A stretch of 42,583 bases of DNA from positions 133-42,715 of the forward strand of contig PMIP01000019.1 in the NCBI GenBank assembly GCA_003158295.1. Direction: 5' to 3'. The position numbers and the translations under genes were made by a program. The DNA is from Chloroflexota bacterium. Its GTDB lineage: Bacteria; Chloroflexota; Limnocylindria; Limnocylindrales; CSP1-4. The notes beneath the pieces were generated by a model. The model was not told the DNA's origin, searched no databases, and was given only the letters and a program-made list of their open reading frames with translations. This document shows positions 5,102 through 42,583 of the stretch, piece after piece. Each line of letters starts with the position of its first letter. Position 1 is the stretch's first letter.

Positions 5102-8121
<3,020 letters not shown>

Positions 8122-19470: not shown

Positions 19471-20652
19471 TCACCAGGCCGGCTGGAACTTCATCTTCAC
19501 ATCGTCCAGCTTGGTTCCCAGGATCTCGATATCGCTCAGGCGGTTGGAGCCCAACCCAAGCTGGTAGGCGATGTTGAGGTGATTCTCGGCTCGCAGGAAG
19601 GGTGGATTGGGGTACTCCGCACTCGGATCGAACCCCATCGCCGCGACCGCGATGGTGTCGGTGGCAACAGGGTTCTTGCCCCCGATGAGCAGGCCGGGGC
19701 TCATGGTGTGGAGGTCGTTATTCCAAGGGCCCTCGCTGCCCTCCACCGTCTTGATCCCGTCGATCAGTGACAACTTGACCGGCCGCGCTCGGTTCAGGTC
19801 CAGCACCACTCTGGGCAGTCGCATCTTCGTCTCGGTGTCGGCCCCATGGAACCCGGTGCGATAGCCATCGCCCGCATTGCGCTCGTAGAACTTGTACGGT
19901 GCCAGCCCGACGAGGTTCTTCATGGACTGGGTGATGCCGAGGAGATAGTGGCACTTCATCTTCGCCACCGAGACCAACGTATCCACCTCTTCGAGCACGT
20001 GGTTCACTTTGAAGTTCTCGTACATGAACCAACCACTGCCGACCGGGAGTGAGGCATAGTCGGTGTAGGGACTCGGGCTGTTCAGGTCGAGAAGCGTCGC
20101 CCCGAGGTTCTTGGCCATGTCCACGTAGCCCCAGGACTCGTAGGAGGCCCACTCCCAAACCGACTCAACGACGTAGATCTTGCTGGCGCCTGAGTCGCGC
20201 AGCAGTTCGCCCATGGCCCGCACCACGACTGGATGGGTGACGTAGCTCTCCGGAGCAGTCGTCCCCGGAGGCGGGATGTTGCCCTTCACTCCTCCGGTCA
20301 GATTGACCTTGATGGCAACCTTGTCGCCCGGTCTGACCACATCCTTCAGTCCGCCCAGGCTGTCGAACAGGTTCTGGACTTGGCGGAGCACGAGAGCGGG
20401 GTCATAGGAGCTGGCCTGCGCGATGCCCACCTGGGCGGGGGGCATCGCGACGGGTGAGGCGTACGCCGACGGCGTGTACACCGGCGAGGGGGACACCGGT
20501 GGGGTGTACACCGGTGGGGTGTACACCGGTGGGGTAAGGAGAGGCGACCCCGCGGGAAGGTGGGGCAGACAACCTTCCAGGATCAACCCTCCCGCCACTG
20601 CGCCTGCCAACTTCAAGAAGTCGCGCCGGGAGATGTCGTCGTGTTGGCTCAT
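19471..20652 (-). CDS. DUF362 domain-containing protein with Tat signal/lipobox
   Basis: MSQHDDISRRDFLKLAGAVAGGLILEGC Tat plus lipobox; GDKVAIKVNLTGG, VAKMKCHYLLGITQSMKNLVGLAPYKFYE, IDGIKTVEGSEGPW, GLLIGGKNPVATDTIAVAAMGFDP. Confidence 0.82.
   Translation of the reverse strand: MSQHDDISRRDFLKLAGAVAGGLILEGCLPHLPAGSPLLTPPVYTPPVYTPPVSPSPVYTPSAYASPVAMPPAQVGIAQASSYDPALVLRQVQNLFDSLGGLKDVVRPGDKVAIKVNLTGGVKGNIPPPGTTAPESYVTHPVVVRAMGELLRDSGASKIYVVESVWEWASYESWGYVDMAKNLGATLLDLNSPSPYTDYASLPVGSGWFMYENFKVNHVLEEVDTLVSVAKMKCHYLLGITQSMKNLVGLAPYKFYERNAGDGYRTGFHGADTETKMRLPRVVLDLNRARPVKLSLIDGIKTVEGSEGPWNNDLHTMSPGLLIGGKNPVATDTIAVAAMGFDPSAEYPNPPFLRAENHLNIAYQLGLGSNRLSDIEILGTKLDDVKMKFQPAW
20471..20535 (-). repeat. 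15-bp tandem repeat encoding (TPPVY) in DUF362 protein linker
   Basis: Repeated ggggtgtacaccggt; protein LLTPPVYTPPVYTPPVSPSPVYTP. Confidence 0.85.
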
Positions 20653-21038
20653 GCTTGGATCCTGTGAAGCATTGAAGGGACGGCTCTCGGGATAGAGAAC
20701 GTCGGGATCCGACCTGGCCCAGCGGAGTGACTCAGGCGCAGCGACTACCAGCGATTCGAGGAGGCTTGTCGGCGCCCACGCCCTCGGCCAGCATAGCAAG
20801 CAGGCGTCCCACGAGGCTGTGTCTTTTGCGCCGGCCGCGCCAGAAAGATGAGGCCGGCATCGAGCGGGCGGCGGATGACCGCCCCCTCCGGCAACCCGGT
20901 CAGGGAGTTTCGCGTGCGCAGCGAGTCCGCGCCGGTCTCGGCGGCCGACGGCACCTGATACGATTCGAGCGGCATGGGGGCCGGCCGGCTCCTCGAATCT
21001 GAGGACCGGCTATCGAGCGACGCAGGGGTCGGAGGATC

Positions 21039-21755: not shown

Positions 21756-22580
21756 CTACTTGCCGCCCATGCGAATCAGCACGATGGACGCCTCGAACAG
21801 CCCGTAGAGGACTACCGACATCACCATCGGGCTGACGAAGTCGGCCCCGGGCGTGATGAGGTTGGAGACGACCACGATGGCCAGGATGGCCGGGCGGCGC
21901 GACTTCCTGAGGCCCCGCGACGACACGATCCCCACCTTCGAGAGAAGGACGAGGATGATCGGGAACTCCATCACAAGGCCAAAGGCCAGGAAGAGCGTCG
22001 AGACGAAGCCGAAATAGGCGTCGGCGGTGAGCAGGATGTGGATGTCGTTGCTCTGGAAGTTGTAGAGGAAGCCCGTGGCGTAGGGGAGGATGAAGTAGGC
22101 CACGCCGACTCCGAGGGCGAAGAAGGCCATCGCCAGCGGCACCCATGGCCGGGCGGCGGATCGCTCGGAGGGGGTGAGCCCGGGAGATATGTACGCCCAG
22201 AACTCGTACAGGATCACCGGCATGGCCAGGATGGCCCCCGTGATGAGCGCAACCTGGAGCTGGATCATCAGGGCGTCGGTCAGCCCCAGGGCTTGGAGCG
22301 GCGCGTCGGTGGGGAGCGGCGATCGCAGGAAGTGGATGATCTGGCCGGAGAAAATGAAGCCCAGGATCGTGCCGGGGATAAGCGAGAAGACCGCGATGTA
22401 CACGCGGTTGCGGAGCTCGACGAGATGGCCGACCCAGCTCATCTCGCCTCTGGCTGATCCCTCAGGGGCGCCGCCCCGGCGAAACGGCCGGGGGAGCCGG
22501 CGGCGCCTGCGGGGCGCTGGCTGGGCCGCGGGCGTAGCGACCTCCGACAGGCGGATATCCGGTTCCATGGTCGATCCCAT
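21756..22580 (-). CDS. tatC: Sec-independent protein translocase TatC
   Basis: MSWVGHLVELRNRVYIAVFSLIPGTILGFIFSGQI, YEFWAYISPGLTPSERSAARPWVP, FGLVMEFPIILVLLSKVGIVSS, SNLITPGADFVSPMVMSVVLYGLFEASIVLIR. Confidence 0.93.
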   Translation of the reverse strand: MGSTMEPDIRLSEVATPAAQPAPRRRRRLPRPFRRGGAPEGSARGEMSWVGHLVELRNRVYIAVFSLIPGTILGFIFSGQIIHFLRSPLPTDAPLQALGLTDALMIQLQVALITGAILAMPVILYEFWAYISPGLTPSERSAARPWVPLAMAFFALGVGVAYFILPYATGFLYNFQSNDIHILLTADAYFGFVSTLFLAFGLVMEFPIILVLLSKVGIVSSRGLRKSRRPAILAIVVVSNLITPGADFVSPMVMSVVLYGLFEASIVLIRMGGK

Positions 22581-22740: not shown

Positions 22741-23949
<1,209 letters not shown>

Positions 23950-24119: not shown

Positions 24120-24629
24120 TCACGGGATATCTGGCTTGGACGGTGCGCCCGGCGCAGCGCCCGAGTTCTCGGGCGCTGCCGGGTAGCCGGGGGCCCAGTA
24201 CTGCTGGGCGGGATACGCGGGTGGCTGCAGCGGGTAGCCCTGCTGCGGATAGGGCTGGCCGGGGTAGGGCTGCTGGGCCGGGTAGGCGGGTGGCTGCGGC
24301 GGGTAGCCCTGCTGCGGATAGGGCTGGCCGGGGTATGGCTGCTGGCCGGGGTAGGGCTGCTGGGCCGGATCCGGCATCTGCGCGGATCCAGGCTGGGCGG
24401 CGTAGTAGGACTGGGCCGGCGGCTGCGGCGCGGCCGTCGGTTGGGGCTGCTGCTGAGCCGGGGAGGTTGGCTGGACCGAGATGGAGTCCTGGAGCTGACC
24501 GGACGCCTTTTGGAACTCGCGGAAGCTCTTGCCTATCGCCGCGCCGACTTCGGGCAGCTTGCCCGGGCCGATCACGATCAGGGCAATCACCAGTATCAGC
24601 AGCAGGTGCGCAGGAGTAAGTCCAGCCAT
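24120..24629 (-). CDS. tatA: Twin-arginine translocase subunit TatA-like with Pro/Gln/Tyr-rich repetitive tail
   Basis: [42 protein letters not shown]; tail [23 protein letters not shown] repeated. Confidence 0.85.
24201..24338 (-). repeat. 69-bp tandem repeat x2 in tatA tail
   Basis: ctgctgggc(g/c)ggata/gtaggcggg... units at 24201-24269 and 24270-24338, encoding [15 protein letters not shown](P/L)QPPAYPA-type repeat. Confidence 0.85.
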
Positions 24630-24651: not shown

Positions 24652-25707
24652 TCAGTCGCTCGGGACAGCGGCCTTGGGGCTAGCGCTCCGTATCGCCGCC
24701 CGCAGTCGGTCCGCGGCGTCTTCCGCGGTCACGTCTCTCTGCGGTTCGGACAGTAACTCGTAGCCCACCATGAACTTGCGGACCGTCGCCTGCAGGAGCG
24801 GCGGGTAGAAGTGGGCGTGTAGCTGCCAGTAGGGTTTGTCGCCTCCGTCGAATGGTGCCTGGTGCCAGCCCATCGAGTACGGGAACGGCAACGAGAAGAG
24901 GGCGTCGTAGCCGCGCAGCAGCGTGGTCAGTCGCTCGGCGAGCGAGTCGCGCTGTGCCTGGTCCAGGTCGGGCACGCGGGCTACCGGACGCCGCGGGATC
25001 AGCAGCGTTTCGAACGGCCAGGCCGCCCAGAACGGCACAACCGCCAGCCAGTCGTCGTCGCCGTCGACCTCGCGCGGGCCGCCGGATTCCTGAGCGGCAT
25101 AGTCCAGTAGCAACGGCCGCCCGTTCGCTTCGTAGTAGCGCTTCTGGCTGGCGTCTTCCTTCTCCCCCTCTCGCGGGACAGCGTCGCCCGCCCAGATCTG
25201 ACCATGCGGATGCGGGTTAGAGGCGCCCATGGCCACGCCCCGGTTCTCGAAGACCTGCACCCAGCGGAACCGCTCACCCAGGGCCGCCGACTGGTCCGCC
25301 CACAAGTCCACGACCGGGCGCGCCTGCGCGGCGCTCATTCGGGCGATGCTGAGATCATGCCGTGGCGAGAAGCAGATCACGAGGCACTCGCCCCGCTCGC
25401 TCTCGGCCCTGAGCAGCCCGTTGTCAATAGACAGGTGCGGAGAATCAGGGCGAAGCGCCGCGAAGTCGTTCGTGAACACGAAAGTCGATTCGTACATCGG
25501 GTTGGTCTCGCCGTTGGCCCTGACGTTGCCCGGGCACAGGTAGCAGTACGGCTCGTAGGTGGGCAGGTCCTCGGGCGGTGCCGCTTCCTGCCGGCCGAGC
25601 CACGGGCGGCTCGTCCTCTCCGGCGATACCAGCAGCCAATCGTCGACGAGCGGGTTGTAGCGGCGGTGCGGCTGGAGCATTGCCCGGGCGGCAGCGCGTC
25701 GGTTCAC
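24652..25707 (-). CDS. galT: Galactose-1-phosphate uridylyltransferase
   Basis: [68 protein letters not shown] start overlapping the deoR stop. Confidence 0.93.
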
Positions 25708-26606
25708 TACCGATCCCCCTCCTGCGATTGGTCCGAGTCTTCCCCAAAGACCTGGGCGTCGCCCGTGGCGGGATCGACAAGGACGAGGTTGCGAACGGCG
25801 GCTGCTATCAGCGTCCTCGCGGCCGAATCCAGGCCCGTGTCCGTGATGACCGTGTCGGCGTCCTCGAGGCGCGCGACGGCGCTGATACCGATCGTTCCCC
25901 ACTTGGTGTGGTCCACCAGCACTACCAGGCGCCTTCCGGCCTCGATCAGCGCACGGTTCGTTTCGGCTTCGAGGATGTTCGGCGTTGTGAGGCCCGTTCG
26001 GGCGTCCAGGCCGTGGCTGCCGAGATACACCGTGTCGACGTGCAGCGACCGGATCACCTCGACGGCGAAGGGTCCGACGAGCGCGTCGGAGGGCGTGCGC
26101 ACGCCGCCACTCAAGATGACCGTCTGATCGGGGCGGCCATCCGCATACAGAACATCCGCGACCGGCACGGAGTTGGTCAGCACCGTGATGCCGGGGCAGT
26201 CGACCAGCAGCCTTGCCAGGGCACAGGTAGTCGTTCCGGCCGAGATGGCGATGGCCGAGCCGGGCGTGACCAGGCCGGCCGCGTAGCCGGCGATGGCACT
26301 CTTCTCGCGTTGCATCAAACTGGACTTCACCCTGAAGCCAGGCTCGAAGAGGGGGCTGCCCTCGATCGCGGCGGCCCCGCCATGGACCTTCTCGAGCAGA
26401 CCCCGCCCATTCAGGATCTCGAGGTCGCGACGAATGGTCATGTCCGACACGCCGAGATCGCGAACGAGATCGGCGACGCGCACGCCACCCTGCTCGCGCA
26501 CGCGCTCAAGGATCAGGTTCTGGCGCAGACGAGCTAGAGCCGGCCTCCGAGTGGCCGTGTCCAGGCCTGCCGCCTCAACCACTCGCTCAGTTGCCTCCGA
26601 GTCCAT
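25707..26606 (-). CDS. DeoR-family transcriptional regulator
   Basis: RQNLILERVREQGGVRVADLVRDLGVSDMTIRRDLEILNGRGLLEKVHGGAA; DeoR C-terminal sensor LSGGVRTPSDALVGPFAVE, GLTTPNILEAETNRALIEA. Confidence 0.92.
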   Translation of the reverse strand: MDSEATERVVEAAGLDTATRRPALARLRQNLILERVREQGGVRVADLVRDLGVSDMTIRRDLEILNGRGLLEKVHGGAAAIEGSPLFEPGFRVKSSLMQREKSAIAGYAAGLVTPGSAIAISAGTTTCALARLLVDCPGITVLTNSVPVADVLYADGRPDQTVILSGGVRTPSDALVGPFAVEVIRSLHVDTVYLGSHGLDARTGLTTPNILEAETNRALIEAGRRLVVLVDHTKWGTIGISAVARLEDADTVITDTGLDSAARTLIAAAVRNLVLVDPATGDAQVFGEDSDQSQEGDR

Positions 26607-26843: not shown

Positions 26844-28241
26844 ATGGATGAATCCACCCGCGCCGGCCAGGTCTCACGCCGGGAAGTACTCAAGAAAGGC
26901 CTTGTGGGGGCTGCCGGCCTGACTGTCCTGCCGGCCGTCCTCGCAGCGTGCTCGTCCAGCGCCGCCACGGCCGCAGCGCCCAGCGGCAACGTAAGCGGCA
27001 ATCTAACCGGCACGCTCAAGATCGGCAGCAACCACTCCGACCCGAGCGAGGCCACCGGCATGACGGCGATCAACGCCGCGTTCGCGGCCGCGACCGGCCT
27101 GACGCCGACCATGAACACGGTCGACCACAATACGTTCCAGGATCAGATCAACAACTACCTCCTGGGGACGCCGGACGACGCCTTCACCTGGTTCTCCGGC
27201 TTCCGGATGCGCTTCTTCGCGGACAAGAGCCTGGCCACGAACATCGATGACGTCTGGTCCGCCGTTTCCAGCAACTTCACCTCGGCCTTCGCCACGGCCG
27301 TCACCGGCAACGACTCCCATATCTACGGGATTCCGGTCGACTACTACCCGTGGTGCGTCTTCTATCGCAAGAGCCTCTTCTCGGACAAGGGTTACACGGT
27401 CCCGTCCACCTGGGCCGACTTCATCACCCTCTGCAAGAAGATGCAGACGGACGGCCTCACACCGATCGCCTTCTCCGACAAGGACGGCTGGCCGGCGATG
27501 GGCACGTTCGACATCCTCAACCTCCGCCTCAACGGCTACGACTTCCACGTCGGCCTCATGACCGGCGCGAACAAGTGGACGGACCCAAAGGTTACGGCCG
27601 TCTTCCAGCAGTGGGCCCAGCTCATCCCGTTCTACACCAGCGGTTTTGCGGGCCTGACCTGGCAGCAGGCGTGCGACACGCTGGTCAGCAAGAAGGCCGG
27701 CCTGTTCTTCCTCGGCCTGTTCATGACCGGTGAAGTCGCCACGGTCGACAAGACCGCGGTCGCCGACATCGACTTCTTCCCCTTCCCCTTCCTCGGCAAC
27801 AGCTACGATGCCGAGGCTGCCCTCGACGCCCCGATCGACATCTGGATGCTCAGCGCGAAGTCACCGTCCCTCACGGCCGACCTCATCAACGCGAAGGCTT
27901 ACATGAACTTCTGGGCCAAGGGCTCGACGCAGGTCCTGATGTACAAGGCCAACAATGGCTTCATCCCGACCGCGAATGACGCCGACTCGAGCACTTACGA
28001 CGTCCTGACGAAGAAGGCAGTCTCGATCGTCAGCGCCGCCAAGAAGATCACCCAGTTCATGGACCGCGACACCCGGCCCGACTTCGCCGGCGCGAACGGC
28101 ATGCAGAGCTTCCTCCTCAGCTTCCTCGGGAATCCCACCCAGGACCTGGCTGCGCTCCAGGCGTCGATCCAGGCGTTCTGGGATGCCCTCCCGGCCTACG
28201 TCGTTGCGCCCGTGCCGACGCCCGCGCCAACAGCAAGCTAA
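26844..28241 (+). CDS. Sugar ABC transporter extracellular solute-binding protein (family 1), Tat-type lipoprotein
   Basis: SRREVLKKGLVGAAGLTVLPAVLAAC (twin-Arg plus lipobox); IYGIPVDYYPWCVFYRKSLFSDKGYTVPSTWADFITLCKKMQTDGLTPIAFSDKDGWPAMGTFD. Confidence 0.9.
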   Translation: MDESTRAGQVSRREVLKKGLVGAAGLTVLPAVLAACSSSAATAAAPSGNVSGNLTGTLKIGSNHSDPSEATGMTAINAAFAAATGLTPTMNTVDHNTFQDQINNYLLGTPDDAFTWFSGFRMRFFADKSLATNIDDVWSAVSSNFTSAFATAVTGNDSHIYGIPVDYYPWCVFYRKSLFSDKGYTVPSTWADFITLCKKMQTDGLTPIAFSDKDGWPAMGTFDILNLRLNGYDFHVGLMTGANKWTDPKVTAVFQQWAQLIPFYTSGFAGLTWQQACDTLVSKKAGLFFLGLFMTGEVATVDKTAVADIDFFPFPFLGNSYDAEAALDAPIDIWMLSAKSPSLTADLINAKAYMNFWAKGSTQVLMYKANNGFIPTANDADSSTYDVLTKKAVSIVSAAKKITQFMDRDTRPDFAGANGMQSFLLSFLGNPTQDLAALQASIQAFWDALPAYVVAPVPTPAPTAS

Positions 28242-28285: not shown

Positions 28286-29269
28286 ATGTCTGAGATAGAG
28301 CCCAAGGCTCTGACTCCTGCCCCGGCGACCACAGCCGGGGCAGGAGTCGTTGCGCCCGCTGGGCGCCGACGGCACTACAGCGTCCTCACGCGTCGAGACA
28401 AAGTCCTGCTCGCACTGATGGTGGGGGTGCCCCTGTCCATCTTCTTCGTCCTGATCTGGGGCATGGCTCTTGTTTCGGTCGTGCTCTCCTTCACCGACTG
28501 GCAGGGCCAGGGCCCGCTCAACTTCGTCGGCCTGAAGAACTACACCTACCTGATCCAAAGCTACCCGGCGTTCTGGCCTGCCCTCTCGCACAACATCCTC
28601 TGGCTGCTCTCATTCATCTGCTTCGCCACCCCGATGGGGATCCTGCTGGCCGTCTGTCTCGATCGACCGCTGAGGGCGTCGGGACTCTATCAGACCATCT
28701 TCTTCACGCCCGTCGTCCTGTCCCTCGCCGTCGTCGGCTTTATCTGGGAGCTCCAGTACTCGCCGCTCGCGGGCAATGGGTTCATCGACAGCGTTCTGGC
28801 CGCGACGGGCCTCGTGAAGGGAAACGCCACTCCGGACTGGCTCGGCGACCCGTCGATCAATATCTGGGCCGTCATCGTCGCGGCAAGCTGGCGCCACATC
28901 GGCTACATCATGATCCTGTACCTGGCGGGCCTGAAGAGCGTCGATCCGTCGCTGCGTGAGGCGGCTGCCATCGATGGGGCGAACGAGCGCCAGACCTTCT
29001 TCTATGTCGTCTTCCCGGTCATGGCGCCCATCAACGTCGTCATCGTGGTCGTGACGGTGATCGAATCCCTGCGGGCATTCGATATCGCCTACATCATCAA
29101 CCACGGCAAGAACGGCCTGGAGCTGCTCTCCACCCTGATCACCAACAACAGCATCAGCGAGGCCAGCCTCATTGGCTTCGGATCGGCCATCGCGGTCGTG
29201 CTGTTGCTGATCTCGCTCGTTCCCATCGTGCTCTATCTGACGCGTGTGATGCGATCGGAGGAGCAGTGA
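28286..29269 (+). CDS. Sugar ABC transporter permease (MalF/UgpA type)
   Basis: SFTDWQGQGPLNFVGLKNYTYL; EAAAIDGANERQTFFYVVFPVMAPINVVIVVVTVIESLRAFDIAYIINHGKNG EAA loop. Confidence 0.92.
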   Translation: MSEIEPKALTPAPATTAGAGVVAPAGRRRHYSVLTRRDKVLLALMVGVPLSIFFVLIWGMALVSVVLSFTDWQGQGPLNFVGLKNYTYLIQSYPAFWPALSHNILWLLSFICFATPMGILLAVCLDRPLRASGLYQTIFFTPVVLSLAVVGFIWELQYSPLAGNGFIDSVLAATGLVKGNATPDWLGDPSINIWAVIVAASWRHIGYIMILYLAGLKSVDPSLREAAAIDGANERQTFFYVVFPVMAPINVVIVVVTVIESLRAFDIAYIINHGKNGLELLSTLITNNSISEASLIGFGSAIAVVLLLISLVPIVLYLTRVMRSEEQ

Positions 29270-30174
29270 GCGCCTGGGCGGTAGCAGGACAGGGGACGAC
29301 CCACAATCGGGCCAGGCGCCGGCTGAAGCGCGCCGGGCTGCACGTCTTCCTGATCGTGCTGGCCTTCATCTTTATGTGGCCGTTGCTCTACGCGCTCTAC
29401 ACGTCGCTGCGCCCTTACGGCGAGATCGTGGCCAACCCAACCGGGCCGTTCTCGCTGCCAGCCACGCTCAACCTCGACAACTACTTTTCGGTCTGGAACG
29501 CCCAGAACATGCTGGGCTTCTACTGGAACACGGCGGTCATCACCATCCCGGCGGTGATCCTGACCCTGTGGATCTCCTCGATGCTGGCGTTCACTATTTC
29601 CAAGTTCAGCTGGCGCTTCAACCTGCTGGTCCTGATGATCTTCACCGCCGGCAACCTCCTGCCGCCGCAGGTCATCATCGTGCCGCTCCGCCTGGTGTAC
29701 CTGCATCTGCCTCTGCCGGCTCCGCTCAGCGACAACGGATTGATGTATGACCAGTTCACGGGGTTGATCCTGATTCACACTACGTTCCAGACCGGCTTCT
29801 GCACGTTCGTATTGAGCAACTACATGAAGACCTTGTCCAAAGAGCTCATCGAGGCGGCCCAGATAGACGGCGCCGGGATCTTCACGATCTACCGCCGCGT
29901 CGTCCTGCCTCTGTGCACTCCGGCCATTGCCGCACTGGCAACGTTGCTCAGCGTCTGGATCTACAACGACTTCTTCTGGGCGTTGCTGCTGTTCAAGTCT
30001 GGCGACAAGCGCCCGATCACCGCGGCCCTGAACAACCTGTCGGGCGCGTTCTTCACAAATCCCACGCAGCTGGCGGCTGTGTCGGTGATGGCGGCGGTAC
30101 CGACGATCGTGCTATACCTGATCCTGCAGCGCTTCTTCGTCACCGGCCTGACGCTCGGCGCGACCAAGTCTTGA
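29266..30174 (+). CDS. Sugar ABC transporter permease (MalG/UgpE type)
   Basis: IFMWPLLYALYTSLRPYGEI; SKELIEAAQIDGAGIFTIYRRVVLPLCTPAIAALATLLSVWIYNDFFWALLLFKS; 4-bp overlap with upstream permease. Confidence 0.92.
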   Translation: MSAWAVAGQGTTHNRARRRLKRAGLHVFLIVLAFIFMWPLLYALYTSLRPYGEIVANPTGPFSLPATLNLDNYFSVWNAQNMLGFYWNTAVITIPAVILTLWISSMLAFTISKFSWRFNLLVLMIFTAGNLLPPQVIIVPLRLVYLHLPLPAPLSDNGLMYDQFTGLILIHTTFQTGFCTFVLSNYMKTLSKELIEAAQIDGAGIFTIYRRVVLPLCTPAIAALATLLSVWIYNDFFWALLLFKSGDKRPITAALNNLSGAFFTNPTQLAAVSVMAAVPTIVLYLILQRFFVTGLTLGATKS

Positions 30175-30237: not shown

Positions 30238-32475
30238 ATGTCCATCGAGTGGAACTCTGATACACGCGAGTTTCACCTCCGGAACGATCGGATCAGCTAC
30301 ATCTTCCGCGTGCTCGAAAGCGGCTGGCTCGGTCATCTCCACTTCGGTCCGTCGCTGGCTGCCGGGAAGGCGTACGCGCACCTGGTCCCGGGCGAGTTCT
30401 TCGGCTACTCGAACCGATTGGGTGAACCGGTGCCATTCGAGTGCCCCACCGGCGGCAGCGGCGATTACCGGATCCCCGCCCTGGCCGTCGAACTGGCGGA
30501 CGGCTCGGGCGTCTTGAACCTTCGCTACAGGAGCCATCGGATCGTCGCCGGGAAGCCGCCTATCCCTGGCCTGCCCTCAACCTACACGGAAGTGGGCGGC
30601 GAGGCGGAGACGCTCGAGATCCTGCTGGTCGATTCGGTCGCCGATCTCGAAGTCCGCCTTCTGTACACGATCTACCGTGATCGACCGGTCATCGTTCGAA
30701 GCGCGCGCGTCACCAACGCGAGCAAAGGACCACTGATCGTACGCGCCGCCATGAGCGCATCGATCGATCTTCCGGACGCGGACTGGCAACTGATCACCTT
30801 GAACGGAGATTGGGCCCGAGAGCGCCACATCGACCGGCGCGATCTTCGGCCGGGACGCCAGTCCGTCTCGAGCGTCAGGGGGGCCTCGAGTTCGCAGCAC
30901 AACCCCTTCGTGGCCCTGGTCCGGCCAGCCGCGACCGAGGAGACCGGCGAGGTCATGGGCTTCTCTCTCGTCTACTCGGGCAACTTCCTGGCCGAGGCCG
31001 AGCTGGAGCCTTTCGGGACGACCCGAGTTCGGATGGGCATCAATCCGGACGGGTTCTCGTGGGTCCTGGAGCCGAGTGCTTCTTTCGACACGCCGGAGGC
31101 GATCCTGGTCTACTCCGCCACCGGCCTGGACGAGATGAGCCACGCCTATCACAGCCTCTTCCGCGAACGTCTGGCCCGCGGGGCATGGCGGGACAAACTC
31201 CGGCCGATCCTGATCAACAACTGGGAGGCGACCTACTTCGACTTCGACGAAGCCCGGCTGCTGGAGATCGCAGCCGCGGGTCGCGAGCTCGGGATCGAGT
31301 TGTTCGTGCTTGACGACGGCTGGTTCGGGCAGCGGGACGACGACACGACTTCGCTCGGCGACTGGAAGGTCAACCGGCGCAAGCTTCCTGGGGGCCTCGA
31401 ATCGCTGGCTCGCAAAGTGGAGGCCCTTGGAATGCGCTTCGGGCTCTGGATCGAGCCCGAGATGATGAGCCGGGCCAGCGCCCTTTTTGAGGCTCACGCG
31501 GACTGGGCCGTCGGCATCCCGTCCCGTCCCCTGACCGAGCACCGCAACCAGTACGTCCTGGACATGTCCCGGCCGGAGGTCGTCGATTATCTGTTCGGCG
31601 TGCTGTCGGGCGTGCTGGGCAGCGCCCCCATCTCCTACGTCAAGTGGGACATGAACCGCACCATCACCGAGCCGTTCACGCCGACCATGCCGGCGTGGCG
31701 ACAGGGCGAGTTCCTGCACCGCTACATCCTTGGCGTATACGCGCTCTACGATCGGCTCACCCGGGCCTTCCCCGGGATACTCTTCGAGTCGTGTGCCGGC
31801 GGCGGGGCCAGGTTCGACCCCGGTCTGCTGGCCTACGCCCCGCAGGCCTGGACCAGCGACAACACGGACGCGATAGATCGCCTCAAGATCCAGTACGGCA
31901 CTTCGCTGGCCTACCCGCTGAGCTCGATGGGCGCACACGTGTCGGCCGTGCCAAACCATCAGGGCGGCCGCGTCACGCCACTCGCGACTCGCGCGGCCGT
32001 GGCCTTCTTCGGCGATCTCGGTTACGAACTGGACCCGACCAAGCTGTCGGAGGACGAACGGGCCGCCATCGCCGAGCAGGTCGCTTTCTACAAGCAGTGG
32101 CGCGAGCTGGTCCAATTCGGCCGCTTCCACCGGCTACGCAGCCCGTTCGAGGGCGATGGCAACGAGACGGCCTGGATGGTCGTGGCAGGCGATCGGAAGG
32201 CGGCCCTCGCAGGCTTCTACGAGGTTCTCAACCGGGTCAACATCGGCCCCCGTCGGCTGCGGCTTCGCGGGCTGGACCCCGCGACGCTCTATCGCGTCTC
32301 GGCGTGGCCGCCATCGGCCGCTCCGGATCAGTCGAGCCGACTGATTGGAGGCGATCTCCTGATGGCCGCGGGGCTCGTCATCGAGGCCCGTCGGATGGCG
32401 TTCCCGGTGGGCGATTTCCTCGCCAGGCTGTACGTCCTGGAAGCGGTTGATTCCGAGCCCGGCGGTGCTGAGTGA
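30238..32475 (+). CDS. Alpha-galactosidase, GH36 family
   Basis: LILINNWEATYFDFDEARLLEIAAAGRELGIELFVLDDGWFGQRDDDTTSLGDWKVNRRKLPGGL, GLWIEPEMMS, YVKWDMNRTITEPF, FESCAGGGARFDPGLLAYAPQAWTSDNTDAIDRLKIQYGTSLAYP. Confidence 0.95.
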   Translation: MSIEWNSDTREFHLRNDRISYIFRVLESGWLGHLHFGPSLAAGKAYAHLVPGEFFGYSNRLGEPVPFECPTGGSGDYRIPALAVELADGSGVLNLRYRSHRIVAGKPPIPGLPSTYTEVGGEAETLEILLVDSVADLEVRLLYTIYRDRPVIVRSARVTNASKGPLIVRAAMSASIDLPDADWQLITLNGDWARERHIDRRDLRPGRQSVSSVRGASSSQHNPFVALVRPAATEETGEVMGFSLVYSGNFLAEAELEPFGTTRVRMGINPDGFSWVLEPSASFDTPEAILVYSATGLDEMSHAYHSLFRERLARGAWRDKLRPILINNWEATYFDFDEARLLEIAAAGRELGIELFVLDDGWFGQRDDDTTSLGDWKVNRRKLPGGLESLARKVEALGMRFGLWIEPEMMSRASALFEAHADWAVGIPSRPLTEHRNQYVLDMSRPEVVDYLFGVLSGVLGSAPISYVKWDMNRTITEPFTPTMPAWRQGEFLHRYILGVYALYDRLTRAFPGILFESCAGGGARFDPGLLAYAPQAWTSDNTDAIDRLKIQYGTSLAYPLSSMGAHVSAVPNHQGGRVTPLATRAAVAFFGDLGYELDPTKLSEDERAAIAEQVAFYKQWRELVQFGRFHRLRSPFEGDGNETAWMVVAGDRKAALAGFYEVLNRVNIGPRRLRLRGLDPATLYRVSAWPPSAAPDQSSRLIGGDLLMAAGLVIEARRMAFPVGDFLARLYVLEAVDSEPGGAE

Positions 32476-32492
32476 CCGCAAACCGGGAGTGA

Positions 32493-35585
<3,093 letters not shown>

Positions 35586-35713: not shown

Positions 35714-36676
35714 ATGAGCGAGTTCAAGATCAGCATCAACCTTTGGAGCCAGGCGGCCTCGTGGCAGGAGATGCTCGAGGCGGGCCAGGCCGTTGACCGG
35801 CTCGGCTACGAGCACCTGTGGACATGGGACCATGTCAAGGCCATCTTCGGCGATCCCCACCAGCCGATCTTCGAGGGCTGGACGGTGATCACGGCCTGGG
35901 CGATGGCCACTCACCGGGTCAAGCTGGGGCTGCTGGTCGGTGCCAACACCTTCCGCAATCCGGGTATCGTCGCCAAGATGGCGACAACACTGGATCACGT
36001 GTCGGGTGGACGGGCGATCCTGGGCATCGGCGGCGCCTGGTTCGAGCTGGAGCACAAGGAGTTCGGGATCGACTTCGGGCGCAGCGTGGGCGAGCGTCTT
36101 GATTGGCTCGATGAGTCGGTCGGGGCCATGCGGGCGATCATGGCCGGCGAGAAGGTCACTTCCCCTCAGGGGGGCCGCTACGCTTTCGACGGCCTGGCGA
36201 TCAGCCCGCTGCCGGTCCAGAAGCGGTTGCCCATCATGATCGGCGGCAACGGTCGCACCAAGACGCTCCGGACGGTGGCTCGCTACGCGGACATGTGGAA
36301 CGGTTTCGGGTTGCCGGGCGAGCTCAAGGAACTCCACGGCGTGCTCCGCGAGCACTGTGCGGAGGCCGGCCGGGACCCCGCCGAGATCGATAGCTCGGTG
36401 AACCTGTGGATGGTCATCCGCGACTCCGAGTCCGAGGCGAAGCGAGTCTGGGCTCGGGCCATGGACCGGAACCTGACTCCGGTGGCGGCCACGATCGAGC
36501 CGGCCCGACCGCTTCTGACAACACCCGAGAAGGTCGCCGAGAGGTTGCTCGAATACGTGGAGGCCGGCTGTACGACGGCGCTGGTGGAGATGCCTGCTCC
36601 ATACGACATGGAGACTCTCGAGCGGCTGGCGAGGGAGGTCAGGCCCTTGGTCGAACGGGGGACCGCTCTGACCTGA
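35714..36676 (+). CDS. LLM-class (F420-dependent-type) oxidoreductase
   Basis: GYEHLWTWDHVKAIFGDPHQPIFEGWTVITAWAMATHRVKLGLLVGANTFRNPGIVAKMATTLDHVSGGRAILGIGGAWFELEHKEFGIDF. Confidence 0.9.
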   Translation: MSEFKISINLWSQAASWQEMLEAGQAVDRLGYEHLWTWDHVKAIFGDPHQPIFEGWTVITAWAMATHRVKLGLLVGANTFRNPGIVAKMATTLDHVSGGRAILGIGGAWFELEHKEFGIDFGRSVGERLDWLDESVGAMRAIMAGEKVTSPQGGRYAFDGLAISPLPVQKRLPIMIGGNGRTKTLRTVARYADMWNGFGLPGELKELHGVLREHCAEAGRDPAEIDSSVNLWMVIRDSESEAKRVWARAMDRNLTPVAATIEPARPLLTTPEKVAERLLEYVEAGCTTALVEMPAPYDMETLERLAREVRPLVERGTALT

Positions 36677-36971: not shown

Positions 36972-37257
36972 TTCTCAAGTGTAGTTGAGCCGGCATGCCG
37001 GGCGGCGATCTGGGTGGTCCCCAGAACCAGGCGCGTCCGACCGCCGAATTGCCCCAATCGCCCCTCCGCCAGCACCGCATGTGGCCATCGAGGAGTATCG
37101 TTGACGTGTTGTCGTCACAGACCGACCGCATCGCGTCGAACTCGGCGGTCGCAAGCACCGCGTCAGTGGCTCGACGAAGGTCGGCCGGGCTTACGTCGGT
37201 TCATTTGCCCCCGGGCAGAGAATGACTCCGCAAGGCGGCCGCAAGGAGAGCTGAAAG

Positions 37258-37842
37258 ATGCCGTGGGGCCTGACTCCAGTCCACCTCATCGTGATCCTGG
37301 TAATCGTTCTGATCGTCGTCGGGCCCGGCAAGCTGCCCGACACTGGCGCCGCCATCGGAAAGGCGCTGCGCGGGTTCAAGGACGCAGTGGACGGCAACGA
37401 TCAGGCCGGCTCGTCACAGCACTCTGACCAGGCGCCCGCCGCACAGGGTCAGCCGCTCCAGTCCAACCCCGGGACTCCGCCGGCCGCAGGCTATCCGCCG
37501 CAGTACGCCCAGCCGCTGCCGCCGCAGTACCCGCCGCAGCCTTACCCGCCGCAGCAGTACCCCCCGCAGCCGTACCCGCCGCAGTACGCGCAGCCGCTGC
37601 CGCCGCAGTACGCGCAGCCGCTGCCGCAGCAGTACCCGCCGCAGCCGGGTATGCCCCAGCAGGCTCCCGTGTACCCCGGTCAGTACCCGCCGCAGCCGTA
37701 CGCGGGGCCGCAACCGAATCTGGTGCCGCCGCCAGGTCCAACGCCCGGCCTGGGCTCCGCGCCATTCCCGGCAGCCCCCTCGGAGCAGCCGGCACAGGGT
37801 CAGACACCTGGGACGGGATCGCAGGAGCCACCTAGGCGCTGA
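37258..37842 (+). CDS. tatA: Second TatA-like protein with Pro/Gln/Tyr-rich repetitive tail
   Basis: MPWGLTPVHLIVILVIVLIVVGPGKLPDTGAAIGKALRGFKDAVDG, tail PPQYPPQPYPPQQYPPQPYPPQYAQPLPPQYAQPLPQQYPPQPG. Confidence 0.85.
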   Translation: MPWGLTPVHLIVILVIVLIVVGPGKLPDTGAAIGKALRGFKDAVDGNDQAGSSQHSDQAPAAQGQPLQSNPGTPPAAGYPPQYAQPLPPQYPPQPYPPQQYPPQPYPPQYAQPLPPQYAQPLPQQYPPQPGMPQQAPVYPGQYPPQPYAGPQPNLVPPPGPTPGLGSAPFPAAPSEQPAQGQTPGTGSQEPPRR

Positions 37843-37943: not shown

Positions 37944-38867
37944 TCAAAGGCTGCAATCTGCCAGGATCGGCAGTAGCTTCTCGTCGATCTCTGCCTCGCT
38001 CGGGCCGCACTCCAGTTTCGCCAGAGTCCAGGACTCGACGTGGTCGACGCCCTCGCCCGGCTCCAGCCTCGTCAGTGGCCCGAGTGTCTCCACCTCGAGC
38101 ATATCGGAGTCGGCGTACGTCTCCGTGTTGCAGCCCATGTCGGCGTAGGTAGCCCCCGGGTCGTACGGATAGTGGATGATCAGGGCATCGCCGCCGAGGA
38201 GATAGGCTGCCCAGCCCTGCTTGTTGAGGAAGCCGACCTTCTGCTTCGTGGTCGCCTTCGGATCCTGCCGGAGCTGGATGTACTTGCGTCCCCACCTCCA
38301 GCGTGGATCGGTCATGTCCGTGAAATACCAAAGGACGAGCGGTCTGGCCGGAGCAAGCATCTCGGGGTGCGGCCGGAACTCCTCTTGCGGGTAGATCGCG
38401 TGTCCGCCCGGTGCCATGACCGAGAGCGCCCACGGTGCCAGCTCACATGCCCAGGAGCCGCGATTCACGATGCGATGAGCCACCTCCACGCACGGTGACG
38501 TGGGGGACACCGTGACGCGCATCTCCTTGTCCAGCGCGTTGGCGCCTTCGTGATTGCGCAGAACGAGCGTGGTGCCGTCCATGGTGTGCTGGACGGGCTC
38601 ATTGTCCGAGGCGTAGGTTCGGGGGAAGATTTCCGGGGCATGCCAGAGGCGATGGCCGCCGTAGTTGTGCCACTCCGCGTCGCCGGTCCGGCCCAGCGTC
38701 TCCGCGTAGTTGTTGAAGAGGTTCTGGCCGTTGACAAAGCCGAGCCGGATTATGCGGGGTCCGACGTCGGTGGTGGCCACGAGCTCTATCTCCCCGTTGG
38801 AGACGCGGATGCAGTTCGGCCAGCCACCGTATTCGACCATCTCGATCACCAGGGAGCCTTCATTCAT
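37944..38867 (-). CDS. Galactose-mutarotase-like fold protein (DUF4380/DUF4432-like), carbohydrate-associated
   Basis: NGEIELVATTDVGPRIIRLGFVNGQNLFNNY..YGGHRLWHAPEIFPRTYASDNEPVQ; SYxDMGCNTETYADSDMLEVETLGPLTRLEPGEGVDHVESWTL. Confidence 0.6.
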   Translation of the reverse strand: MNEGSLVIEMVEYGGWPNCIRVSNGEIELVATTDVGPRIIRLGFVNGQNLFNNYAETLGRTGDAEWHNYGGHRLWHAPEIFPRTYASDNEPVQHTMDGTTLVLRNHEGANALDKEMRVTVSPTSPCVEVAHRIVNRGSWACELAPWALSVMAPGGHAIYPQEEFRPHPEMLAPARPLVLWYFTDMTDPRWRWGRKYIQLRQDPKATTKQKVGFLNKQGWAAYLLGGDALIIHYPYDPGATYADMGCNTETYADSDMLEVETLGPLTRLEPGEGVDHVESWTLAKLECGPSEAEIDEKLLPILADCSL

Positions 38868-38931
38868 CGGCGACCATCCACCTTCGCATGTGCTGCTGCC
38901 TCTCTGACGGGAATTGTGCCGGATGTGCGTG

Positions 38932-41340
38932 CTAGACGTTCGATGCTGTTGCGGTCTTCGTGTCCGCCCGCGACACGACCGGACTAGTCAGTTCGCCCGG
39001 CTGCCTCTGCTCGATGGCAAGGCCCCGGGCATCGACCTCGTAGTCGCCTCCGTACACTCGCACCCTGACGGGCGCGCCTTCTAGCACCTGCAGGTTCACC
39101 TTCTGATCGTCCACGCGCAGCTCCAGCAAGGCTCCACGATAGTAGACGCGGAACCGGTAGGAACGCCATTGTGACGGCAGCGTGGGCTGGAAGATGAGGA
39201 CGTCGCCGTCCGTGCGCATACCGCCGAACCCGAAGACCATGCTGGCCCAGACACCTGCGGCGGACGTCACATGCAGTCCCTGGTCCGTGTTGCGGTTGTA
39301 GTTGTCCAGATCCATTCGGGCGCCGTACGAGAAGAAGGTGTAGGCGTCCTCGAGCTTGCCGAGCTCCACCGCCAGAATCGAGTGCAGCGAAGGCGACAGC
39401 GACGACTCGTGAATCGTGCGCGCCTCGTAGAAGTCGTAGTTAGCCCGCTTCTCCGCCAGCGTGTAGTCCTGACTGAAGAAGTACATGAGGTTCAACACGT
39501 CCGGCTGTTTGACCATGTCGAACCGGAAGATCTTGATGTACGCCCAGTTCTTGTAGATCGGAATCTCGTCTGGCGGGAAGTGCTCGAGATCGACATGCGG
39601 GAGGTCGAAATAGCCGGCGTGTTGCTCGAATACGCCCGTCTGCTCGTCTTTGGGTATGCGCATCTTCTCGGCCATGTGGGCCCAGCGCGCCGGCTCATCG
39701 GGCTTGAGGTCGGTCTTGGCCAATGCTTCGCGGTAGAGATCTGGCGCCTTGGCCTGCATCTCATCTAGCACGGACAACGTGAACTCGAACGCCTTCTTGC
39801 CCATGACATTCGTGTAGCAGTTGTGGTTCACCATCATGTGGAACTCATCGGGACCCATCACGCCGTAGAAACCGAAGTCACCCTGCGACGGGCTCCAGCC
39901 ACCTGCGCTGGCCAGGAACCGGCAGATCTGAAGCAGCATCTCGATGCCTTCGCGATACAAGAACTCCTTGTCGCGCATGATCACGTCGTGGTGCCAGATG
40001 GCGTACGCAACCGCCATGTCGGCGTGGATTTCGAGATCCACGTGCTGCCAGGTCCCGGAGTCTTCAGTCCCCGTGATCGTGGCAAACGGGAATCGCGCGC
40101 CTTCGCAATCGAGTTGGCGAGCCCGCTCCATCGCCTGCCCGAGGCGATGGTATCGGTACAGGAGCAGGTTCCTGGCGGCGGGCGGGTCGACGAACATCAG
40201 CAGGCGGTGCGAGTAGATCTCGCTGTCCCAGAACACCCAGCCGAAGTAGACCTCGCCGGTCATCCCCTTGCACAGGGCGTTGAGGTCGGCGTTCTCACCG
40301 TGGTACGTCTGATACGTCTGGAAGCACGAGAAGCGCAGGCCCTGCAGAACGCTGGGATCGCCTTCGATCTCGATGTCCATGACATTCCACACGCGCGTCC
40401 AGAAGGCCGAATGCTCGGCGAGCAGGCTGTCGAACGACGCGTTGCGGTGCCGTCGCATCAGCTCGAGGCCATCGGCTCGCAGGGTGTCCGCGTCCGAGGT
40501 CCTTGCCCACTCATTGACCGCGACCCGGTCGACGGCGGTCTCCGTCCCCTGCGTCAGGCTCAGCTCGAAGTCGACACCGATGAACTTGACGTCCTCAACC
40601 AGAGAGGTCTTGAGGAGCTGATCGGCATGGAGATGGAAGCCAGAGAACAGCTGATGACCGCTCCGGAGCGTTTCCGCCTGGATCGCCCAGCCGCCCTCGA
40701 TCGCGCTCTTCCTCCGTGTCTGCCAGAGGTTGATGATCGGGCGGTCCTGGCCTGAGCCGGCGCCGGTCTGATCCCATCCGGCGGCGATCTCGTAGGGAGT
40801 GTTGAAGTCCAGGCCCATTCGAACCCGGACCGTGCCGGAGAAGTCCAGCGGCTCGAAGGCGATGCGCTGGCAGCCGACCCGGGTGGACTGCATGTCCGTG
40901 AAGCGGATGAAGGTCAGCTTGAGGTGCTTGCCGGTGGCGGTCTGCCACACGAACTCGCGGGTAAGCACGCCGTTGCGCATGTCCAGCTTGCGCGTGAAGT
41001 CGGAGAAGGCCGATCTCGCCAGGTCGAGCTGCTCGCCGTCCACCCAGAGCCGCGTGTGAAGCCAATCCACCGCGTTGAGCATCGCCGCGCCCTGCGTGAC
41101 GAAGCCCTTGAAGATCTGGTCGTGGTGGATGTCCATGAGCTCGTAAAGGTGGTTGAAGTAGCTGCCCAGGAGGTGGTCGCCGCTGTAGCCCTCCTCGAAG
41201 TAGCCGCGGACGCCCATGAATTCGTTGGCCACCGAGAACACGGACTCCGCGACGCGCTGGTAACCGGGGTCGAAGCCCTCTTCGACGATCGTCCAGGGAT
41301 CGCCGCGGAAGTAGTCGATGGGCGTCTTGGACGTCTTCAT
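38932..41340 (-). CDS. Glycoside hydrolase family 65 (disaccharide phosphorylase such as maltose/kojibiose/trehalose type)
   Basis: VFSVANEFMGVRGYFEEGYSGDHLLGSYFNHLYE, YFGWVFWDSEIYSHRLLMFVDPPAARNLLLYRYHRLGQAMERARQLDCEGARFPF, YGVMGPDEFHMMVNHNCYTNVMGKKAFEF, ESSLSPSLHSILAVELG; start at MKTSKTPIDYF. Confidence 0.92.
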   Translation of the reverse strand: MKTSKTPIDYFRGDPWTIVEEGFDPGYQRVAESVFSVANEFMGVRGYFEEGYSGDHLLGSYFNHLYELMDIHHDQIFKGFVTQGAAMLNAVDWLHTRLWVDGEQLDLARSAFSDFTRKLDMRNGVLTREFVWQTATGKHLKLTFIRFTDMQSTRVGCQRIAFEPLDFSGTVRVRMGLDFNTPYEIAAGWDQTGAGSGQDRPIINLWQTRRKSAIEGGWAIQAETLRSGHQLFSGFHLHADQLLKTSLVEDVKFIGVDFELSLTQGTETAVDRVAVNEWARTSDADTLRADGLELMRRHRNASFDSLLAEHSAFWTRVWNVMDIEIEGDPSVLQGLRFSCFQTYQTYHGENADLNALCKGMTGEVYFGWVFWDSEIYSHRLLMFVDPPAARNLLLYRYHRLGQAMERARQLDCEGARFPFATITGTEDSGTWQHVDLEIHADMAVAYAIWHHDVIMRDKEFLYREGIEMLLQICRFLASAGGWSPSQGDFGFYGVMGPDEFHMMVNHNCYTNVMGKKAFEFTLSVLDEMQAKAPDLYREALAKTDLKPDEPARWAHMAEKMRIPKDEQTGVFEQHAGYFDLPHVDLEHFPPDEIPIYKNWAYIKIFRFDMVKQPDVLNLMYFFSQDYTLAEKRANYDFYEARTIHESSLSPSLHSILAVELGKLEDAYTFFSYGARMDLDNYNRNTDQGLHVTSAAGVWASMVFGFGGMRTDGDVLIFQPTLPSQWRSYRFRVYYRGALLELRVDDQKVNLQVLEGAPVRVRVYGGDYEVDARGLAIEQRQPGELTSPVVSRADTKTATASNV

Positions 41341-41633
41341 GGTGAGGCTCCGGAAGGCTTGGACGGTGGCGATTTGGTGGCAGGTCGATGGGTCGGGCAG
41401 CGGGCCCGCCTGGAGATCAGGAGGCGGCGGAGGCATTCATCCGCGTCGAGGCGGCGAGTCATGTAGTCCGCCAAGCACGGCGCCGCAGGGCGCCACGCGG
41501 CGGGTGTCGTCGAGGGGGACAGCCTCGTGGAGGCACGTCCGGCCGATGAGTGCGAGATCGGCCTCGCGTGCACCTTGCCGGCCGCCGGCTTCGAGGGCGT
41601 CGCCCGCTCGATCGGTGTTCAAGTTCACCTCAC

Positions 41634-41649
41634 TAGGTTTCGAAGGCTA
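41634..41649. promoter_or_regulatory. Candidate LacI-family operator (CpG-centred palindrome)
   Basis: TAGGTTTCGAAGGCTA: TAGnnTTCGAAnnCTA, 12/16 symmetric positions centred on CG, between lacI-type gene and GH65 gene. Confidence 0.5.
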
Positions 41650-41662
41650 TGACCGTTGGAAT

Positions 41663-41681
41663 GCGCGCGACGGCAGCGCGC
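41663..41681 (-). terminator. Candidate hairpin just downstream of LacI-type gene
   Basis: GCGCGC-GACGGCA-GCGCGC, 35 nt past the stop of the minus-strand regulator. Confidence 0.35.
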
Positions 41682-41715
41682 CTCCCAGCGAGCTGCATCC
41701 GGAGCCAAACCCTCC

Positions 41716-42583
41716 TTAGGCGCTGCCCTCCCTCGGCGGGCACGTGGACCCTCGGATGGTCAGCTCGGGCCGCACCAGCGTCTGTTCGGGATCCGTGCAA
41801 TTGTGCTCCAGCCTGGCCAGCAGCATCCGAGCCGCGACGTTTCCGAGCTCATCCGCGGGGAGGCTGATCGTGGTCAGCGGCGGGGTGGCCAATTCGCTGG
41901 ACGTGTCGCTGAGCATCGCCACCAACGAGAGGTCGTCTGGAATCCGCCGTGCCTGTGCCTGCGCAGCCCGCAAGACCGCGACCGCGGACTGCTCCTGCGG
42001 CGCCACAAAGGCCGTGATCTCAGGGTGCCTGCGGAGCATCTCCTGAGCTGCGGCCGACATCGCCTCGATGGTCAGGCCACCCAGGCATGCGAGCGAGGCC
42101 AGGCCGTACTTGCGGCAGGCCTTCTCATACGCGTCGAGCGCCCAGGTTGTGAAGCCGTAGGTCTTGTCCTGAATGACCGGGTCGAAGGTCAGAAAACCGA
42201 TGGCGCGATGGCCCAGCCCGACCAGGTGCTCGAATGCGACTTCGATGCCGTAGTCGATGTCGATGTCGGCAAAGCTCAGACCACTATTGTCCATTCGGTG
42301 CCCGATCATGACGAACGGGTGACCGTGGTCCCGAAGCAGGCTCGGGCGGGTGTCGTCGGTCAGGATTTCGAGCAGGAGCATTCCGTCCACCTGGCGGCTC
42401 CGGAAGAACGCCAGCAGTTCCGGTTCGTTCAGGGTGCGAGTGATGATGTTGATTGAGTAGCCTGCGTCCTCGACTCCCAGAGCCGCGGCCATGATCACTC
42501 GGAGGTTGGGTGGGTTGAACTCCTGCGGCACATGCATGCCGATGAGACCCGTCCGGCCAGATCGGATCTGGCGCCACGCGCTC
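41716..42583 (-). CDS. LacI-family transcriptional regulator (5' end outside window; frame open to the edge)
   Basis: RQIRSGRTGLIGMHVPQEFN..NLRVIMAAALGVEDAGYSINI, VDGMLLLEI, ALDAYEKACRKYGL, AFVAPQEQSAVAVLRAAQAQARRIPDDLSLVAMLSDTSSELATPPLTTISLPADELGNVAARMLLARLE. Confidence 0.92.
   Translation of the reverse strand, partial: SAWRQIRSGRTGLIGMHVPQEFNPPNLRVIMAAALGVEDAGYSINIITRTLNEPELLAFFRSRQVDGMLLLEILTDDTRPSLLRDHGHPFVMIGHRMDNSGLSFADIDIDYGIEVAFEHLVGLGHRAIGFLTFDPVIQDKTYGFTTWALDAYEKACRKYGLASLACLGGLTIEAMSAAAQEMLRRHPEITAFVAPQEQSAVAVLRAAQAQARRIPDDLSLVAMLSDTSSELATPPLTTISLPADELGNVAARMLLARLEHNCTDPEQTLVRPELTIRGSTCPPREGSA

Follow-up and report, generated by a model that had tools for sequence, protein, structure and literature searches.

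Two TatA-type proteins and a single TatC, with no TatB detected, at a galactose locus of a Chloroflexota bacterium

A galactose locus with tatA1, tatA2, and tatC

The window, by which we mean the whole 42,583-nucleotide stretch of contig PMIP01000019.1 that was analyzed, derives from a 2.7-Mb MAG that is 85% complete. It contains a galactose locus in which the genes of a twin-arginine (Tat) system are placed among genes for galactoside uptake and breakdown. The features of this locus, in order of position, are as follows.

19471..20799, minus strand: DUF362 protein beyond tatC with a Tat lipoprotein signal, SRRDFLKLAGAVAGGLILEGC; probable second cargo (PF04015, TAT_signal match)
21756..22580, minus strand: tatC, sole copy found in the genome (PF00902, E 3e-57; TIGR00945 above cut-off)
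22741..23949, minus strand: galK, galactokinase, between tatA1 and tatC (TIGR00131 above cut-off)
24120..24629, minus strand: tatA1, first TatA, 169 aa, between galT and galK (PF02416, 54.4 bits, E 7e-15)
24652..25902, minus strand: galT, galactose-1-phosphate uridylyltransferase, 22 bp upstream of tatA1 (TIGR00209 above cut-off)
25707..26606, minus strand: DeoR-family regulator at the divergence point (PF00455, PF08220)
26844..28241, plus strand: ABC-type sugar-binding lipoprotein; carries the Tat signal SRREVLKKGLVGAAGLTVLPAVLAAC and is probably an on-site Tat cargo (from its sequence; without a Pfam match)
28286..30174, plus strand: two ABC permeases (PF00528)
30238..35585, plus strand: GH36 alpha-galactosidase and LacZ-type GH2 beta-galactosidase (profile matches)
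35714..36676, plus strand: F420-type LLM oxidoreductase, the usual upstream neighbor of tatA2 (profile matches, locus map)
37243..37248, plus strand: AAGGAG, likely ribosome-binding site of tatA2 (by reading the sequence)
37258..37842, plus strand: tatA2, second TatA-family protein, 194 aa (PF02416, E 7e-14; orthologs in 15 of 21 genus genomes)
37276..37398, plus strand: TatA2 core, comprising a transmembrane (TM) helix (residues 7 to 20), the hinge GPGKLP, and an amphipathic helix (residues 23 to 47) (AlphaFold2, alignment)
37405..37839, plus strand: TatA2 P/Q/Y-rich tail, residues 50 to 194, without predicted secondary structure (AlphaFold2, composition)
37822..37839, plus strand: C-terminal hexapeptide QEPPRR, a local variant of the genus-wide EPPRQG end (ortholog alignment)

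On the minus strand the genes run in the order deoR, galT, tatA1, galK, and tatC. Divergent from deoR are the genes for the binding protein, the two permeases, GH36, LacZ, and the LLM oxidoreductase, followed by tatA2. This arrangement on both sides of the divergence point is kept in the Tat-positive genomes of the genus wherever contigs allow, and in three of them (G005, G014, and G019) the transporter and hydrolase genes are absent from between galT and tatA2 while both tatA genes stay. A second sugar module lies just past tatA2 (window 37944-42537, minus strand) and encodes a DUF4380 protein, a GH65-family enzyme, and a LacI-type regulator; in G015 a GH65 and DUF4380 pair sits elsewhere, beside another galT (L238). 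Farther away, 5590-8121 (plus strand) encodes a large protein in which a 312-bp unit is tandemly repeated about four times. Extra TatA1-type genes outside the galactose locus were seen at L049/L234 (G013:C83), where the gene adjoins another DeoR-family regulator, and at L037 (G004:C8).

The tatA2 gene is an open frame of 194 residues with an ATG start, and a CGCAAGGAG-like motif is found 5' of most TatA2 orthologs in the genus. TatA2 matches the Pfam TatA_B_E family (PF02416) with 51.2 bits (E 7e-14; cut-off 21), which places it in the TatA/B/E superfamily. Its highest-scoring NCBIfam model is TIGR01411 (TatA/TatE; cut-off 53.9), to which TatA2 scores 49.9 bits and TatA1 47.0 bits. Against the TatB model TIGR01410 (cut-off 56.5), TatA2 and TatA1 reach 24.4 and 29.4 bits, which assigns neither to TatB; both score far nearer the TatA/E cut-off than the TatB cut-off. 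The AlphaFold2 model of TatA2 (single sequence; pLDDT mostly 66 to 83 in the helices, a moderate confidence) has helices at residues 7 to 20 and 23 to 47 and coil up to residue 194, and thereby follows the superfamily plan of a TM helix, a short hinge, an amphipathic helix, and a disordered tail. Known TatA topology would put this tail in the cytoplasm. The N-terminus (MPWGLTPVHL) contains neither the Glu3 nor the Lys8 of the TatE-type motif; by alignment, the polar residue where the TM helix begins is His9. Judged by family match and predicted fold, tatA2 is a genuine second TatA, as an earlier, sequence-only reading of this DNA had proposed. That reading had described two similar TatA paralogs in one locus, and their cores are indeed 68% identical over about 41 residues, with starts 12.6 kb apart. 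It made no mention of the genes around tatA1 (tatC, galK, and galT), of the Tat signal on the binding protein, or of the recurrence of both paralogs throughout the genus. TatA2 and its locus are ordinary parts in an unusual setting.

The N-terminus of the binding protein, MDESTRAGQVSRREVLKKGLVGAAGLTVLPAVLAAC, is a twin-arginine lipoprotein signal, and a closely matching signal is present in all 14 readable copies from the other Tat-positive genomes of the genus. Both this protein and the DUF362 protein have predicted Tat lipoprotein signals, as expected of Tat cargo; we infer the sugar-binding role of the former from its lipoprotein signal and the adjacent permeases. Tat-negative genomes hold only more distant homologs (the best, in G012, is 44% identical; G002 has none), and the nearest homologs in the five examined have no such signal. 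Genome-wide counts of Tat signals with PF10518 were too weak to split Tat-positive from Tat-negative genomes, and Tat-negative G016 had the best match.

Distribution of the tat genes and age of the two TatA types

A search of the whole 85%-complete genome with PF02416, a family that covers TatB too, returned only tatA1 and tatA2, and a TatC search returned one copy, the partner that a Tat subunit calls for. All three genes lie in the window, and neither a tatB nor a canonical tatABC operon was found elsewhere in the genome at this completeness, to the extent of which the set matches a minimal TatAC system. The failure of the sequence-only reading to recognize a TatB extends to the genus: no TatB, nor any TatA/B/E gene outside the TatA1 and TatA2 types, was found in its 15 Tat-positive genomes. 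A hidden TatB, or a third short TatA-like protein of the RGPKTLP family, was sought in the genus with an alignment of that family, which returned TatA1 and TatA2 only.

Both tatA genes are present in 15 of the 21 genus genomes and both are absent from the other 6, all of which also lack an intact tatC. Among the Tat-positive genomes, tatC was not found in G005 and G019 because their contigs break in or just after galK. Two Tat-negative genomes, G012 (on a 160-kb contig) and G016 (on a 9-kb contig), keep deoR-galT-galK; the gap between galT and galK where tatA1 would sit is about 170 bp and 71 bp, respectively, which leaves no room for tatA1, and no tatC was detected past galK. The tat genes are therefore likely truly absent from these two. 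All genomes of the genus are incomplete and rpoB was not found in 9 of the 21, so missing sequence could account for part of the joint absence and the number of tat losses is uncertain. In partial rpoB and galT trees the Tat-negative genomes intermingle with the Tat-positive ones, and the poorly resolved partial rpoB tree suggests more than one loss; rpoB was dropped as a genus tree, being missing from those nine genomes. Tat-negative G020 carries a truncated tatC (L056 8231-8665) that is 51% identical to the tatC of the window. It lies inside a 100-kb contig, about 20 kb from the contig end, with no tatA or gal genes near.

To place the paralogs, we used a tree built on 107 cores of TatA proteins in the family (55 columns; many forks open). 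One branch each sets apart the TatA1 and the TatA2 of the genus (SH-aLRT 92 and 99), and TatA2 joins, at moderate support (SH-aLRT 94), a second TatA of other genera that shares LP(E/D)TGAA. Since each type forms its own clade across the 15 genomes, a recent duplication in situ was rejected; the core tree speaks against it in a suggestive rather than firm way, and the duplication would be older than the sequence-only reading implied. The polar TM residue is His in both paralogs (His8 in TatA1, His9 in TatA2); in sister genera the TatA linked to TatC mostly has Glu there. Most sampled sister genera (L078, L061, L065, L082, and others) also encode a short protein, TatA/B-like and with an RGPKTLP hinge, whose gene is on a contig other than that of TatC. 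This short protein is absent from the genus of the window.

The P/Q/Y-rich tails

TRF detected repeats with 24-bp and 30-bp units in the tatA2 tail (37495-37639) and a 69-bp unit in tatA1. Across the genus, the mean tail length of both paralogs is 95 to 97 residues. Tyrosine makes up 6.7% of TatA1 tails and 8.3% of TatA2 tails compared with 0 to 0.3% in other genera of the family, and glutamine 14.5% and 22.6% compared with 3 to 4%, where one comparison entry is overlong from an assembly gap and the TatA1 end of G006 is affected by unknown bases. The TatA tails of those other genera are Ala/Pro-rich. By composition, the P/Q/Y-rich tails are thus a genus trait gained by both paralogs, which bears out the earlier description of tails alike in composition and different in repeat units.

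The same reading had suggested selection on the tail, and this was borne out in part. Composition and short motifs are kept: QSYYA in TatA1 and the C-terminal EPPRQG in TatA2 are conserved above shuffled tails, and the last six residues of TatA2 have 52% pairwise identity among 15 orthologs versus 20% in shuffled tails (maximum of 29% in 500). The constraint, as gauged by substitution rates, is weak: pN/pS of the tails is about 0.3 to 0.4 in close pairs, distant pairs being near saturation and poorly alignable. The TatA2 core is much lower, with a pN of 0.00 to 0.03 in the closest pairs, and is more conserved than that of TatA1.

It is quite possible, if not our first choice, that the P/Q/Y tail does nothing in itself and is low-complexity sequence, nearly neutral to selection, that replication slippage has spread in GC-rich DNA. 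The tails have internal tandem repeats whose units turn over between species, their codons are strongly homogeneous, and TatA tails have been described as not conserved and as dispensable elsewhere (PMC13186574). P/Q/Y-rich sequence is also not unique to Tat proteins, because several other membrane proteins of the genus have such segments. Near-neutrality fits less well with the fact that all 31 tails in the genus have retained their frame and composition, with the enrichment of tyrosine in both paralogs when it is nearly absent in other genera, with the conserved EPPRQG end and QSYYA motif, or with the pN/pS of the close pairs. A further proposal, that matching tails gained in parallel by two old paralogs mediate mixed TatA1-TatA2 assembly or clustering on a Tat translocase dedicated to the galactoside locus, replacing TatB, strikes us as improbable. 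No part of the system is less well explained than the parallel tails. In a search of an open literature library for proline-rich TatA tails, the titles and abstracts of the matches contained nothing about such tails.

The other P/Q/Y-bearing membrane proteins are unrelated (L241, L243, L244, L246, L248, and L258), and by eye include zinc-ribbon-like, RDD-like, and trypsin-like proteins. A QYPPQ DNA pattern was tried as a test of lineage background and set aside: outside tatA2 it occurred no more than at about the reversed-control rate, and several matches were real P/Q/Y-rich membrane proteins.

Proposed working of the Tat system

TatC, TatA1, and TatA2, without TatB, probably make up a Tat translocase, the only one detected in this bacterium, with tatA2 encoding a working TatA-type subunit. 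This reading draws on what the sequences establish about family, fold plan, genus-wide conservation, placement in the galactoside locus, the Tat signal of the cargo, and the joint presence or absence of the tat genes. TatC binds the twin-arginine signal. The chief local cargo would be the galactoside-binding lipoprotein, and we propose that this is why the tat genes are in the gal operon. In Escherichia coli, TatB occupies the polar-cluster site of TatC at rest and is replaced by TatA once cargo binds, and an independent change from TatA to a TatB-like protein is thought to have occurred more than once (PMC5201420). As two TatA types were found but no TatB, the simplest split, and a plausible one, has TatA1 as the TatB-like subunit and TatA2 as the recruited one. 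TatA1 would act mainly with TatC in the receptor, in a TatB-like or bifunctional manner; it is in line with tatC, and its REFQKA-type amphipathic helix resembles the REFRKA of the TatC-linked TatA of sister genera. TatA2, whose helix ends in GFKDA and which probably has its own promoter, would be recruited in number so that folded cargo can pass. The tails would be flexible cytoplasmic extensions whose composition and end motifs are weakly constrained. As the weakest step, they may bring TatA1 and TatA2 together, or lead both to a cytoplasmic partner that they share; hetero-oligomerization of TatA1 and TatA2, which the sequence-only reading had raised, is compatible with the data. The roles may also be reversed, or the two proteins redundant: His is the polar TM residue of both and both fall under the TatB cut-off, which gives no sign of a division of labor.

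Somewhat unlikely, in our judgment, is that TatC works with a bifunctional TatA1 alone, as in the minimal TatAC of Bacillus, and that TatA2 is an auxiliary or dosage copy like E. coli TatE or Bacillus subtilis TatAc. Two-component TatAC systems and auxiliary TatA paralogs have precedents (PMC13186574, PMC5777986), the cores of TatA1 and TatA2 are closely similar, and some genera of the family have TatC plus a single TatA-type gene. However, retention of TatA2 in 15 of 15 Tat-positive genomes, with a core more conserved than that of TatA1, exceeds what would be expected of a dispensable copy. The sequence-only reading had suggested sugar-specific Tat pores, and tatA2 does lie toward the second sugar module (GH65, LacI) while tatA1 is between galT and galK. 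We nevertheless consider it very unlikely that each TatA is a pore for the exported proteins of a different sugar: there is a single TatC, tatA2 stays near galT-tatA1 in the three genomes without the intervening transporter and hydrolase genes, and no GH65 match was seen near tatA2 in the loci of the other genomes. The link to sugar is real, but it concerns a single Tat system that sits in a single galactose locus. That TatA2 is a functionless relic, a view to which only its unusual tail lends anything, is hardly credible given an intact, strongly conserved core and a ribosome-binding site present genus-wide.

The proposed system has partial counterparts. Minimal TatAC systems, for example in Bacillus (PMC13186574), likewise have TatC with TatA-type proteins only and no TatB found; here, however, two conserved TatA types with long P/Q/Y tails accompany one TatC in a galactose locus. 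The chloroplast Hcf106/Tha4 pair, one member of which acts as TatB (PMC5201420), is comparable in having one TatC and two TatA-family proteins that closely resemble each other and carry the same polar TM residue, but differs in its unrelated tails and separate origin, and the role split is only proposed here. TatE-type auxiliary paralogs (PMC5777986) are also extra TatA-family genes apart from tatC, but TatE is short, whereas TatA2 has a long tail and no Glu3/Lys8 motif. In a survey of bacterial tatC neighborhoods, tat genes also adjoin likely cargo genes, and roughly half of bacterial classes are without tatB (PMC3827258); the difference here is that galK and galT are interspersed among the tat genes, with galactosidases and an ABC galactoside transporter alongside.

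Known here from incomplete genomes only, the lineage offers a clear example from nature of two distinct TatA types in a Tat system for which no TatB was found. The system is linked to a defined cargo and gene cluster, and some members of the genus lack it as a whole. Such a case would open two questions to testing: by what route a TatA turns into a TatB-like subunit, and whether the TatA tail, supposedly dispensable, can have a function.
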